A stretch of DNA of 64,000 nt from Blautia parvula (GTDB taxonomy: Bacteria; Bacillota; Clostridia; Lachnospirales; Lachnospiraceae), in assembly GCF_020215665.1 (NCBI RefSeq), contig NZ_CP084061.1, positions 1,426,001 through 1,490,000 of the forward strand, read 5' to 3'. Position 1 is the first letter of the stretch. Each line of letters starts with the position of its first letter. The notes beneath the pieces were generated by a model. The model worked only from the letters and a program-made list of their open reading frames with translations, had not been told where the DNA came from and ran no database searches. Made by a program: the position numbers and the translations under genes. Below are positions 37,854 to 41,623 of the stretch, in pieces.

Positions 37854-39140
37854 TTATCCTTGGATATCTCCGTTTGCACGGAGCAGTTCTTTTGCGCATT
37901 CCATATAATAATGGCGCCCATTTGCGCTTGTTTCGTATTCTGCCGTTTTTTCCAGAGCTGCGGCTTTTAACTGCAGCACTTTGCTGTCAGGTTCCGCAGC
38001 CAGCAGCAGATCACAGAGCTCCAGGCACCACTGGTACTCTTTTTCCTTTAGTGCCTTTTTGGCCGCCTCAAAAGTTTTCGTTTTGCCGCCTATCAGATCC
38101 AGCATTTTTTCGGAATGCGCTTTCGGAGCAAGGGGATGGAGATTCGTCGGATTTCCGTCAAACCATCCTAAATATGCCGAATAAATCTCTCGTACCGTCC
38201 ACTCCACACATCCATAATGCTCCGCCAAATACGGAAGATTTGCATATTCCCCGGGCAGTCGGATTTCAGAAGCCAATTCTTCCGGGCTTTTGCCTGCATT
38301 CATTCCCTCTAATGTTTTGGTGAGAATATAGTCAATAGAATTTTTAAAATTCCCCAGCACTTCCCGGATTTTTTCATTGCCGGATATCAGCGCTGTATGG
38401 CCCGGCAGAAGATATTCTGCAGGGTAAGACATGAGCACATCAAGACTGTGGATCCACGTTGCGAGATTGCGGTACTGTCCGCCGCGAATCGCGTATAAAT
38501 TGGGAAAACAGCCAAAATAATTGTCGCCGCAGCACAGCACTTCCTTTTCAGGGAACCATATCATGAGCTGTTCTTCCGCCTCACCCGGAAGACGAACCAT
38601 CTCGACCTGTACCCCGTCAATTTCTCTGACAATGCGCTCCTGCTGACAAACCCTGGTCGGTGGGACAAAAGCCCTGTGTTCCCCGTAGACCACGCCCTCC
38701 CGCGGTCCGATTCCCTGAGAGATGGCTTCCTCGTCTGTGAGAGAATATCCAAACTGCCGTTTTCCCCGCAGATTCTGAATATCCTGCAGAAGTTCCGTTT
38801 TTTCCAATACAGCAGTTACAGGTTCAAAGGCTATGATTTCCTCCGCGCTTTCCTGAAATGCCCCTGCGCCGCCCCGGTGATCGGGATGTCCGTGTGTATA
38901 AAGAATGGTTTTTACTTTTTTGCCAGTATTCTTTTCAATGATTTCTGACAATCTTTGCCCGCGCTCCAGGGTGTCCAGAGTGTCAATTAAAATAACGCCG
39001 GCAGCCCCCTCAACAAAGACAGCGTTGCTGTGCCCGAAGCCTGATACGAACCACACCCCTTTTGTCACTTCAGAAACGGTTTCTTTGTAATTTTTTTCTG
39101 TAAAGTCCCGTAATGTCTGACCGCCATTTTCTATAAGCAT
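37854..39140 (-). CDS. MBL-fold hydrolase with alkylsulfatase dimerisation domain
   Basis: A 428-residue metallo-beta-lactamase-fold protein. The zinc motif THGHPDH lies at 82-88, a further ligand Asp is in CCGDNYFG, and a histidine in LPGHTALISG. The C-terminal third (about 275-400) matches the helical dimerisation part of class III alkylsulfatases (SdsA1/BDS1). There is no signal peptide, unlike many SDS hydrolases, so it is probably cytoplasmic. AATGGAGG precedes the ATG. It stands alone. Activity on alkyl sulfates is plausible but not shown; other MBL esterase activity is possible. Confidence 0.82.
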   Translation of the reverse strand: MLIENGGQTLRDFTEKNYKETVSEVTKGVWFVSGFGHSNAVFVEGAAGVILIDTLDTLERGQRLSEIIEKNTGKKVKTILYTHGHPDHRGGAGAFQESAEEIIAFEPVTAVLEKTELLQDIQNLRGKRQFGYSLTDEEAISQGIGPREGVVYGEHRAFVPPTRVCQQERIVREIDGVQVEMVRLPGEAEEQLMIWFPEKEVLCCGDNYFGCFPNLYAIRGGQYRNLATWIHSLDVLMSYPAEYLLPGHTALISGNEKIREVLGNFKNSIDYILTKTLEGMNAGKSPEELASEIRLPGEYANLPYLAEHYGCVEWTVREIYSAYLGWFDGNPTNLHPLAPKAHSEKMLDLIGGKTKTFEAAKKALKEKEYQWCLELCDLLLAAEPDSKVLQLKAAALEKTAEYETSANGRHYYMECAKELLRANGDIQG

Positions 39141-39245: not shown

Positions 39246-39284
39246 GAAAAAACGGCATAGCCGTAATGGCTGATGCCGTTTTTT
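39246..39284. terminator. Terminator after the sigma/anti-sigma genes
   Basis: CGGCAT and ATGCCG arms with an inner GCC/GGC pair are flanked by A and T runs, so the hairpin works on both strands. It ends the minus-strand sigma factor operon. Confidence 0.82.
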
Positions 39285-39317: not shown

Positions 39318-40025
39318 TTATTCTCCGTGATGCCCGTTTCTATGCCCGTGTTCTGTATTTTCATAGTCTGAGTCGCCGGAAGAATGACTGCTCTGCTGAT
39401 TTTCCTGACTCTCTTCCGACTGGTCACCCCTGGATTTCTCATCGTGTTTTCCATTGCCCTGGCCGCTGTGTTTTTCTCTGTGGCCTTCTGTCTCCGTGTC
39501 ATGTTCCCGGCTGTGATGTTCACGGTACTGCTGACCGTATGAGTGGCAGGCCTCATTGGCGCTCTGCTGCATATCTGCCTCCTGCTCGTCATCATGGCAG
39601 GAAACCTTCACCTTTGCCTTATCCCCCTGGCACTCCTGATAGGAATCTGTCTCCATAATGGCCTGCAGCGCTTCCTGGTAATGCATTCCCGTCACATCCA
39701 CCTGGGAGATTATGCTCTCTCCGTCTTCGTTCAGACCCTCCGCTGAAATCACCGTTTCTTTGCCGTTTACGGACAGACCGATCTCAACCGGGCCTTCCAT
39801 AGTGATATATGCTGCCTCGGCTTTTATCTCATAAGCCCTCATACTCCCCGCAAACACCAGTACCAGCAGCAAAGCCCCTGCCAGTGTCCGGTAAAATACC
39901 GGTCTTTGGTAAAAGCGGCGTTTTGAACAGGAATCCAGTTGGGCGATCAGGGTTTCCTTTGTTTTTTCCTTCATCTGCTCATCTGCTTTTACAGAATCAA
40001 ATGCGTCTCTGATTTTTCTGCTCAC
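39318..40025 (-). CDS. RsgI-like transmembrane anti-sigma factor with His-rich tail
   Basis: A 235-residue type II membrane protein. Residues 1-44 are cytoplasmic and would bind the ECF sigma factor, one helix spans about 46-64, and the outer part begins with an RsgI-type core (GPVEIGLSVNGKETVISAEGL, about 79-98). The self-cleavage Asn-Pro pair of RsgI is replaced by Gly-Pro. The C-terminus from about residue 155 is disordered, with many His, Gln, Ser and acidic residues and the end GHRNGHHGE. This suggests metal or surface binding in place of the carbohydrate modules of clostridial RsgI. It overlaps the sigma gene by 4 bp. Confidence 0.78.
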   Translation of the reverse strand: MSRKIRDAFDSVKADEQMKEKTKETLIAQLDSCSKRRFYQRPVFYRTLAGALLLVLVFAGSMRAYEIKAEAAYITMEGPVEIGLSVNGKETVISAEGLNEDGESIISQVDVTGMHYQEALQAIMETDSYQECQGDKAKVKVSCHDDEQEADMQQSANEACHSYGQQYREHHSREHDTETEGHREKHSGQGNGKHDEKSRGDQSEESQENQQSSHSSGDSDYENTEHGHRNGHHGE

Positions 40026-40498
40026 TCCACGTCACCTCCTACCATATCCTTCAGCATCTGTCTGGCACGGTTCATCCAGGTATAAACGGTATTCTCTTTT
40101 TTATGCAGGATTCCCGCTATTTCCACTGCTGTGTATCCCTCGTAATAGAAGAGATAAATAACGGATTTGTATTTGTCCGGCAGTTTCAGGACTGCCTCCC
40201 GTATGTAAGATAAATCCTCCTTCTCCTCTATGGGAATTTCCTGTGCTTCCTCCAGGGAAGTATGCCTGCGGAAAATATTCTTCAGGAAATCCTTGCACTC
40301 ATTGATCGTCACCCGGATGATCCAGGCTTTTTCATGTTCCTTAGAGTCAAATTCCGGATTGGCGCGCATCAGCTTCAAAAAGACGTTCTGCATAATGTCC
40401 TGGGTGTCATCATAATTCTTTCCATAAGAATAGCAGATACGGGTTATGGTATCTGCGTATTCTTCCACTATTACATTGATGTCCCATTTTGTCATCAT
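40022..40498 (-). CDS. ECF-type RNA polymerase sigma factor
   Basis: A 158-residue sigma-70 relative with region 2 (YGKNYDDTQDIMQNVFLKLM, where DDTQD and the aromatic core contact -10 DNA) and region 4 (KLPDKYKSVIYLFYYEGYTAVEIAGILHK; helix-turn-helix near 120-145). It lies 4 bp over the anti-sigma gene and 60 bp downstream of the Cys-repeat protein gene, so the three are probably one regulon. ATG ATG at the start has AAAGGAT upstream. Its own promoter and the signal it answers to are unknown. Confidence 0.9.
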   Translation of the reverse strand: MMTKWDINVIVEEYADTITRICYSYGKNYDDTQDIMQNVFLKLMRANPEFDSKEHEKAWIIRVTINECKDFLKNIFRRHTSLEEAQEIPIEEKEDLSYIREAVLKLPDKYKSVIYLFYYEGYTAVEIAGILHKKENTVYTWMNRARQMLKDMVGGDVE

Positions 40499-40558
40499 GT
40501 GAATGAAATCCTTTCGGCTTTATATGATACTATCTGTCTTCTTTTCCTTGATGCTGTC

Positions 40559-41485
40559 TTATTTTCCGTGATGATTTCCATGACTGCTGCCGTGATGTTT
40601 CCCATGGCCCCCGAAAGTGTCTGTGCCGTTCACAGAATCTTCCGGATTCTGACAGGCCGCGCTGTTCCTGCAGGCTTCATGGATCTGGCAGTTGGCGCCG
40701 TACTCACACTCTTCCGAATTCTGACAGGCTGCGCTGTTCCTGCAGGCTTCATGAATCTGGCAGTTGGCGCCGTACTCACACTTCTCCTGGATTTGACAGT
40801 CTTCATTGTTCATGCAGACTCCCTGGTTCCGGCAGTCGGTTCCATTCATGCAGATTTCCGGATTCTGACAGTCGGTTCTATTTATGCTGTCGGTGATGAC
40901 AGTATTAGCCTGGTTTTGACCGTCTGCATGATACGCAGAATCTGTCTGGTTTTGACTGTCTGCGGCATCTGCCTGACTGTCTGGATTATTCCCGACAGAT
41001 GTCTGTTTCACACTGTCCTCATAGTTCACAGTGACGAACTGGTTTTGGCTGTCAGTTTCATTCGCAGTACCTGTACGTTTCTGGCTGTCCGCTTCATTTG
41101 CAGTGCCTTTACCACTCTGATTGCCTGCTTTATTCCCAGTGTCTGCACGATTCTGGCTGTCCGCTTCATTTACAACACCTGTACAGTCACGGCTGCCTGT
41201 TCCGTTTATGACAGTATCCCGGCTCTGTCCGGAAGTACCATAGACGCAGTTGCCCGGGTTCTGACAACCTGCTCCATGTTCACAGTCTTCCCTCTTCTGA
41301 CAATCTGTTCCTGCACAGGTTTCCGTATATGAGCAGTCTGCTCCATGTTCCCTGCACACACTATCCCGGCACCACAGACGGCTGTGATCCCCTTTTCCTC
41401 CTGCCATCACAACGGTACTCATTGTCCCAACCAGGAGCACACCTGCTGCCGCGGCAGCTAAAACTTTTCTTTTATCAAACTTCAT
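40559..41485 (-). CDS. Secreted Cys-rich solenoid-like repeat protein with His-rich C-terminus
   Basis: A 308-residue exported protein; the signal peptide (KVLAAAAAGVLLVG..VMA-G) begins at ATG 41485, which has GGAGG 9 nt upstream. The mature part has 12-residue repeats. In the distal half, 13 cysteines occur exactly every sixth residue (pattern C-x5-C-x5), for example TDCQNPEICMNG. A middle part keeps the period with Ser/Thr in place of Cys (ADSQNRADTGNK). The N-terminal part has nine more cysteines. The tail GGHGKHHGSSHGNHHGK is His-rich. Two 24-residue units are almost identical (DNA repeat at 40638-40781). I recognise no named family; a disulfide-laddered beta-solenoid or metal-binding surface protein is plausible. 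Confidence 0.75.
   Translation of the reverse strand: MKFDKRKVLAAAAAGVLLVGTMSTVVMAGGKGDHSRLWCRDSVCREHGADCSYTETCAGTDCQKREDCEHGAGCQNPGNCVYGTSGQSRDTVINGTGSRDCTGVVNEADSQNRADTGNKAGNQSGKGTANEADSQKRTGTANETDSQNQFVTVNYEDSVKQTSVGNNPDSQADAADSQNQTDSAYHADGQNQANTVITDSINRTDCQNPEICMNGTDCRNQGVCMNNEDCQIQEKCEYGANCQIHEACRNSAACQNSEECEYGANCQIHEACRNSAACQNPEDSVNGTDTFGGHGKHHGSSHGNHHGK
40638..40781. repeat. 72-bp tandem duplication inside the Cys-repeat gene
   Basis: Two adjacent 72-bp copies differ at about three positions and encode two successive 24-residue Cys-repeat units, which shows recent repeat expansion in the gene. Confidence 0.9.
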
Positions 41486-41623
41486 CTTTTTATTCCTCCG
41501 ATTCTTCATCCTTTTATTTTCAGCGGTTTCTTCCCGGCAGAACGCCCGGAAACTCCTCTTTATACTAATAAAACGATTGGACCGGAGGAATCCTTTCAAA
41601 AATATGAAATTTATTTTATTTTT

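Follow-up and report, generated by a model that had tools for sequence, protein, structure and literature searches.

What might be sensed by an operon that encodes a sigma factor, a membrane-bound anti-sigma factor and a secreted protein full of evenly spaced cysteines, and do these three genes belong together at all? The question is raised by three minus-strand genes of Blautia parvula at positions 39318-41485 of a 64,000-nucleotide stretch of its genome, called the window here. In order, they encode a secreted Cys-repeat protein (the companion), an extracytoplasmic function (ECF) sigma factor and an anti-sigma factor. An earlier note, made from the sequence of the window, had regarded them as one regulated system, perhaps for metal or redox sensing at the surface. 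We put the chances at about even that they form a self-contained surface-signalling cassette, in which the sigma factor drives its own operon and the companion probably acts as an extracellular metal binder with feedback on the sensor. The existence of one conserved three-gene unit is strongly supported by comparison with related genomes, because the same layout is kept in two congeners, a companion is present in 69 of 78 relatives and the operons have a common promoter motif. With relatives of the unit spread across many gut Clostridia, it has the look of a sensor dedicated to something at the surface of the cell. The literature searched, outside which most subscription papers lie, contained no account of the cassette; the passages of PMC7406223 and PMC8999054 that were available do not mention RsgI, and those of PMC10579405 hold nothing bearing on the cassette.

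The gene order given by the earlier note was confirmed by the open reading frames, the sigma and anti-sigma genes overlapping by 4 bp (GTGA), and its naming of these two genes was upheld by domain searches. The sigma factor combines regions 2 and 4 in a short protein of 158 amino acids, as ECF sigma factors do, with matches over the Pfam and NCBIfam cut-offs to Sigma70_r2 (53.2 bits, cut-off 24), Sigma70_r4_2 (51.3, cut-off 25.7) and TIGR02937 (82.1, cut-off 42.9). The anti-sigma factor, in which the note had seen an RsgI-type core, matches RsgI_M (PF23750) at 48.9 bits (cut-off 25.3) and is built of a short cytoplasmic part, a single membrane helix, the RsgI_M domain and a long tail rich in His, acidic residues, Gln and Ser. 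We modelled its first 165 residues from an 82-row alignment (predicted local distance difference test score, pLDDT, 73.5; predicted template-modelling score, pTM, 0.50), and the best Foldseek match of the model was RsgI of Bacillus subtilis (8t9n_B, E 2.9e-4; 8t9n_A, E 9.2e-4). The template-modelling score to 8t9n_B was 0.71 by target length and 0.50 by query length, and the RsgI domains of Clostridium thermocellum appeared at E 0.047 and above. A profile of the same alignment matched six chains in the PDB, all of them RsgI. By its PF23750 match and its predicted fold, the outer domain is thus SEAL/RsgI-like. RsgI_N (PF12791) was found nowhere in the window genome at E 0.001, the B. subtilis control genome being positive, and was not among the families matched at E 0.01 by the 12 anti-sigma factors of a second profile; the adjoining sigma factor is of the ECF kind, not of the SigI type.

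How widely this arrangement is kept was examined in 133 loci, which the removal of four duplicates reduced to 129. Their sources included 77 of 121 match rows (with all but G430 of the 54 best) and 41 of the 46 loci of a scan of named genomes, the other five being already in the set. A sigma profile built from 63 sequences of these loci divides them into 84 of type A, the window kind (above 180 bits, the window sigma factor scoring 241.9), 44 of type B, with other sigma types (below 70 bits or no match), and one decayed locus in between; two loci, L144 and L165, ended up in type B through a failure to recognise their sigma gene. At least 700 nt of upstream DNA was available for 78 type-A and 43 type-B loci. 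The anti-sigma protein itself was matched in 31 of 145 related genomes. The profile of 12 anti-sigma factors was found in 99 of 397 genomes of the family (E 1e-12) and in 12 of 20 of the genus, counts that include anti-sigma factors with other sigma partners. The loci of the named genomes come, for example, from Blautia, Mediterraneibacter, Frisingicoccus, Agathobaculum and Anaeromassilibacillus, and also from further Lachnospiraceae, Oscillospiraceae and other Clostridia. In two congeners (G008 and G009) all three genes recur in unchanged order, with anti-sigma factors 77-78% identical and Cys-repeat companions that are far more diverged than these.

Companions were sought by a rule that considers signal peptide, ribosome-binding site, length and place only and is blind to Cys and His. 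It found a secreted reading frame before the sigma gene in 66 of the 78 type-A loci, 62 of these frames being Cys/His-rich. The total of 69 results from removing a polysaccharide deacetylase wrongly taken in L090 and adding four companions recognised by reading (L083, L085, L133 and L155). In type B the rule selected six of 43 loci, two of them the misfiled cassettes and four apparently unrelated. According to the earlier note, the idea of a unit would fail if the Cys-repeat gene were found away from the sigma/anti-sigma pair. The window-type Cys protein occurs in three of the 145 genomes, always in the cassette, besides two weak and apparently unrelated matches. A profile of 11 companions with Asp-rich loops, two rows of which come from the genomes searched, matched 18 of the 145, in 16 cases at the cassette and in two elsewhere (G032 and G075). 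The link between companion and cassette, as judged from these genomes, appears strong but not absolute. The match in G075 is a differently built protein. In G032 (L223, 2783-6740), a companion homologue ending in a His tail precedes genes for a response regulator and a probable sensor kinase, which looks like an exchange of the regulator, and L212, the shorter locus of this genome, contains no type-A promoter motif.

A further link between the sigma factor and its own genes comes from the promoter region. The window element, TGAAAGGA-N14-TCGTTTTA (41569-41598), lies upstream of the operon and is a version of a motif shared by type-A loci, roughly TGMAWGGA-N14-TCGTNTTA, which was searched as TG[AC]A[AT]G[AG][AT]-N14-nCGTnT[TAC]. 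It is found before the operon in 70 of the 78 type-A loci, the window included, and in two of the 43 type-B loci, both of them the misfiled cassettes, as against one of 1560 shuffled upstream regions and none of 78 reverse-strand controls. A first expression had found 61 of 78, most misses having TGCAAGGA, and was widened after the data had been seen, so the fraction of 70/78 is post hoc, whereas the contrast with the controls is not. Within the 70 sites, conservation is also strong in a TGAA-like stretch beyond the -10 element, 34-37 nt from where the -35 begins (T 100%, G 74%, A 75%, A 94%).

The position of the motif is nearly exclusive. The window genome (6.25 Mb, single contig) has one site with zero mismatches, at this operon, and its sites with one or two mismatches are no commoner than in a reversed control (5 versus 7 and 2 versus 2). 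In 28 genomes chosen because they carry the cassette, exact sites number 22, of which 21 stand before a cassette and one (G422) lies inside a 455-codon open frame. Allowing up to one mismatch raises the number of sites to 35, with 24 of them ahead of cassettes and 11 away from them, as against 17 in the reversed control; at this level, four of the 28 genomes lack a site altogether. A wider regulon with this motif was considered and rejected on these counts, and the two off-cassette sites examined of the 11, the exact one in G422 and the closest-looking one in G019, are both inside long reading frames. Because the motif stands almost only at cassettes, the sigma factor seems to serve its own operon, and dedication to it is the simplest reading of the promoter sequences.

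If the operon is its own target, the companion should be the effector, because it is the only recognisable output besides the sigma and anti-sigma factors. In the window this protein has a signal peptide and 22 Cys, and the regularity that the earlier note had pointed to is real: 16 of the 21 Cys-Cys gaps are exactly six, a number reached by none of 20,000 shuffles of the mature protein (highest 6). The gene carries tandem repeats of 36/72 bp, and between the two Cys blocks, as judged by eye, similar units carry Ser or another residue instead of Cys. The companion matches no Pfam or NCBIfam family up to E 1, and a Pfam search with four companions gave nothing over the cut-off. In its relatives, DxDxDGxCD loops occur in companions of 48 of the 78 type-A loci (by the rule), Cys and His together make up a median of 13.5% of the mature part (66 type-A reading frames), and the number of Cys ranges from 1 to 29 among 65 companions. 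On a sigma tree of 84 rows, Cys hexads without Asp loops are found in 11 rows and require two changes, neither of which is avoidable given branches supported at 95% or more in the Shimodaira-Hasegawa-like approximate likelihood-ratio test (SH-aLRT); the tree is a quick one, in which 38 of 80 inner branches are weak. We read this as two origins of C-x5-C-x5-C companions, so the Cys hexads of the window would be one version of a fast-changing companion family. A Cys hexad unique to this unit was rejected, in view of the two origins and of the same spacing in a secreted CAP/SCP-like protein (by eye) of G136 (L034, 1378-2157), where a C-x5-C run lies ahead of the domain and the 3.2-kb locus has no sigma gene.

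The anti-sigma factor has changed as well. Asn-Pro, which we take to be the cut position of RsgI proteins, is present in 77 of 82 type-A anti-sigma factors (alignment A2, from which L061 and L074 were left out for their stop codons), and five of the six matched RsgI chains in the PDB start exactly at its Pro, as cut fragments would. The window and its two congeners read Pro-Val instead, and the site was lost separately in L088 and L092, with three changes on the sigma tree overall. The window anti-sigma factor therefore lacks the Asn-Pro of self-cleaving SEAL domains. The sensors without Asn-Pro carry another companion, or none (L092): the DxDxDGxCD module is absent in five of five of them as against 22 of 76 that keep the site (Fisher p 0.003, which ignores kinship; L056, L119 and L128 were excluded for want of upstream DNA). 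This coupling includes a single well-supported independent pair and is suggestive at most. That Asn-Pro loss simply accompanies Cys hexads was rejected, since the second hexad lineage keeps the site.

The tails of the two exported proteins, described by the earlier note as His/Gly-rich, do contain these residues, with 6 His in the last 30 positions of the Cys protein and 5 in those of the anti-sigma factor. In the last 30 residues of anti-sigma factors, His averages 3.70 in the 84 type-A loci and 0.84 in the 44 of type B (Mann-Whitney p 8e-12, a statistic that ignores kinship), and at least two His are found in 68 of 84 as against 9 of 44. The His contents of companion and anti-sigma tails are correlated (Spearman 0.65; 69 loci, the L090 deacetylase included), and independent contrasts on the sigma tree retain this covariation (r 0.31, rank 0.46, sign-flip p 0.0002). 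Among the six residue classes tested in all, Gly, acidic, Ser/Thr and Asn/Gln residues do not covary. No other quantitative evidence connects the two exported proteins as well as this covariation, which suggests that the companion also meets the sensor or its ligand; it points to a common ligand, possibly a metal, or to a common surface.

Taken together, these results suggest how the cassette might work. The membrane-spanning anti-sigma factor would keep the ECF sigma factor inside the cell until a change at the surface, read by the SEAL domain and the low-complexity His-rich tail, led to its destruction or loosening. The freed sigma factor would then transcribe its own operon and essentially nothing else; the first gene of this operon encodes the secreted Cys/His-rich protein, with Asp loops too in relatives. 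This companion would most likely bind metal ions outside the cell and feed back on the sensor, a proposal made because the two tails carry matched amounts of His. In most relatives the sensor would probably cut itself at Asn-Pro and then undergo intramembrane proteolysis, as for RsgI, whose outer domain self-cleaves and so starts signalling, and for which RseP and ClpXP steps are known, according to the part of PMC12203970 consulted; the same source reports that closing the cut site of B. subtilis RsgI does not block signalling fully. Since Asn-Pro is gone in the window lineage, its first step would have to differ and could use, for example, a separate protease or binding alone. An input other than carbohydrate, as the earlier note had supposed from the carbohydrate-binding RsgI proteins, is likely, because no binding module follows the SEAL domain. 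Metal sensing is plausible; we infer it, as redox sensing would have to be inferred, with the His covariation of the tails as the sole quantitative hint. Within this scheme we prefer extracellular metal binding as the job of the companion, in view of Cys, His and Asp loops in anaerobes, and would give this function roughly as much chance of being right as of being wrong.

Several observations weigh against the metal-binding, self-contained cassette. Nine of the 78 type-A loci have no companion beside the sigma gene, and five of these nine keep the motif, which means that sigma factor and companion do not always go together; any target whose promoter has diverged would also escape the motif search. 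The metal site is argued for by composition and His covariation rather than demonstrated in the companion: a model of one Asp-type companion is of low confidence (mean pLDDT 50.5), and EF-hand_1 stays just under its cut-off in the same protein (23.9 versus 25.4 bits). His is not unique in covarying, as Arg+Lys of the tails does so too (rank 0.30, p 0.006), and some cassettes (L049 and L059) have no His in either tail and carry tails of Arg, Asn and Gly instead. These last points would suit a cell-wall or envelope stress response, in which the companion is attached to the wall or fills space and the charged, Gly-rich tails bind wall polymers or sense pH, not metals. Such roles have precedents, SigI/RsgI pairs being linked to heat stress among other roles (PMC12203970, in part) and sigmaV/RsiV to lysozyme (PMC9044953, PMC4183432, PMC5014341 and PMC6066255). 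We nevertheless find this somewhat unlikely, as the Cys and His content and the Asp loops of the companions fit ion binding better than a spacer.

Alternatively, the companion could be mainly a ligand or co-inhibitor without a separate job, which would control the cutting of the sensor by binding to its SEAL domain and tail. The covarying tails and the absence of the Asp module wherever Asn-Pro is lost would agree with this. However, the association is subject to the kinship already mentioned, the other Cys-hexad lineage lacks the Asp module yet keeps Asn-Pro, and a circuit that produces only a part of its own sensor would achieve nothing, unless further targets were overlooked; the idea strikes us as quite improbable. 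Redox sensing, in which Cys pairs would form disulfides and alter the sensor when oxygen or oxidants reach the surface, would be in keeping with the evenly spaced Cys of the window lineage and with Blautia being an obligate anaerobe. It is very doubtful, though, because the variable Cys number is odd in 26 of the 65 companions, the matched part of the tails is His, and 12 aligned anti-sigma factors have no invariant or nearly invariant Cys column. Returning to the metal-binding cassette, it is tempting to speculate that the companion is an operon-made ligand that controls the sensor of the same operon through a metal bound jointly by both His-rich tails, and that in the window lineage the two changed together, from the Asp-loop module to Cys hexads and from a self-cleaving to a non-cleaving SEAL domain, with a new first activation step. 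We regard this fuller version as improbable.

Like the SigI-RsgI systems of B. subtilis and C. thermocellum, the cassette has a membrane anti-sigma factor with a related SEAL/periplasmic domain, in which most relatives keep Asn-Pro. In contrast, its partner is a 158-amino-acid ECF sigma factor rather than SigI, RsgI_N is missing, the outer end is a His-rich tail instead of a carbohydrate-binding module, the operon includes a secreted companion gene, and the window lineage is without Asn-Pro. RsgI8 of C. thermocellum resembles the window anti-sigma factor in being of the RsgI kind without the self-cleavage motif; PMC12203970 describes it as uncut and the start of its signalling as unknown. This likeness is by description, not by sequence, and RsgI8 belongs to a SigI pair. 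CnrYXH and CorE have an ECF sigma output that responds to metal, as we propose here; to our knowledge, they have no SEAL domain and belong to other phyla. The sigmaV-RsiV pair also joins an ECF sigma factor to a membrane anti-sigma factor; the outer domain of RsiV differs from that of the cassette, and its ligand is lysozyme, not an operon-encoded protein. According to PMC4183432, PMC5014341, PMC6066255 and PMC9044953, RsiV is destroyed by intramembrane proteolysis after binding this outside protein, and a passage of PMC8999054 describes a C-terminal Cys-rich domain in CorE itself, unlike the cassette sigma factor.

In the part of PMC12203970 consulted, the known inputs of SigI systems with SEAL/RsgI outer domains are carbohydrates. 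Here, many gut Clostridia pair a SEAL-type outer domain with an ECF sigma factor; the promoter is nearly constant among them, the only apparent output is a secreted companion, and signal, sensor and output may all be encoded in three small genes. Lineages in which the cut site or the companion, or both of them, were lost can serve as natural mutants for studying how such sensors start signalling.

Table 1. Features of the operon and its flanks in the window.
Feature	Positions	Strand	Basis
Cys-hexad companion, secreted, 308 amino acids	40559..41485	-	ggagga ahead of start at 41485
Companion signal peptide, about 28 amino acids, end ...TVVMA/GG	41402..41485	-	hydrophobic-core rule; cleavage point by eye
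First Cys block of companion, residues 39-80	41246..41371	-	Cys spacing
Second Cys block of companion, residues 206-278, 13 Cys at exact spacing 6	40652..40870	-	Cys spacing; 36/72-bp DNA repeats
Companion His/Gly tail	40562..40615	-	residue composition
ECF sigma factor, 158 amino acids	40022..40498	-	Pfam above cut-off
Anti-sigma factor, 235 amino acids, GTG start, 4-bp overlap with sigma gene	39318..40025	-	reading frame; Pfam
Anti-sigma transmembrane helix, about residues 43-66	39828..39899	-	structure model helix and hydrophobic sequence
RsgI_M/SEAL-type outer domain, residues 72-184 (Pfam match)	39474..39812	-	Pfam; Foldseek to 8t9n_B
Position of relatives' Asn-Pro cut site; window reads Pro79-Val80	39786..39791	-	alignment of 82 type-A anti-sigma factors
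Anti-sigma outer tail, His/acidic/Gln/Ser-rich, about residues 165-235	39321..39531	-	sequence; His in relatives' tails
Promoter-like element: -35 TGAAAGGA (41591-41598), 14-nt spacer, -10 TCGTTTTA (41569-41576)	41569..41598	-	motif search
Terminator-like hairpin and T run, 3' of third gene	39252..39264	-	terminator scan

The hairpin listed last is one of nine terminator-like sites in the region, where shuffles lead one to expect 2.5, and is weak evidence on its own; a scan of the region for sigma-70 promoters gave one site, with 3.1 expected by chance. Some relatives show the cassette duplicated, decayed or in other company. G369 has two cassettes (L054 and L077), the second with a frame-broken sigma gene, no companion seen and the promoter motif kept. 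In L070 (G331), a decayed cassette, a deletion has apparently left the end of the companion joined, out of frame, to the 3' half of the sigma gene. An ABC transporter pair, which may be a different target, lies ahead of a companion-less type-A sigma/anti-sigma pair in G075 (L225, 4165-6309). Finally, the window operon is followed on its 3' side by a minus-strand gene at 37854-39140 that, by eye, encodes an alkylsulfatase-like protein of the metallo-beta-lactamase fold, and the congener G008 has a MerR-type gene at that place.

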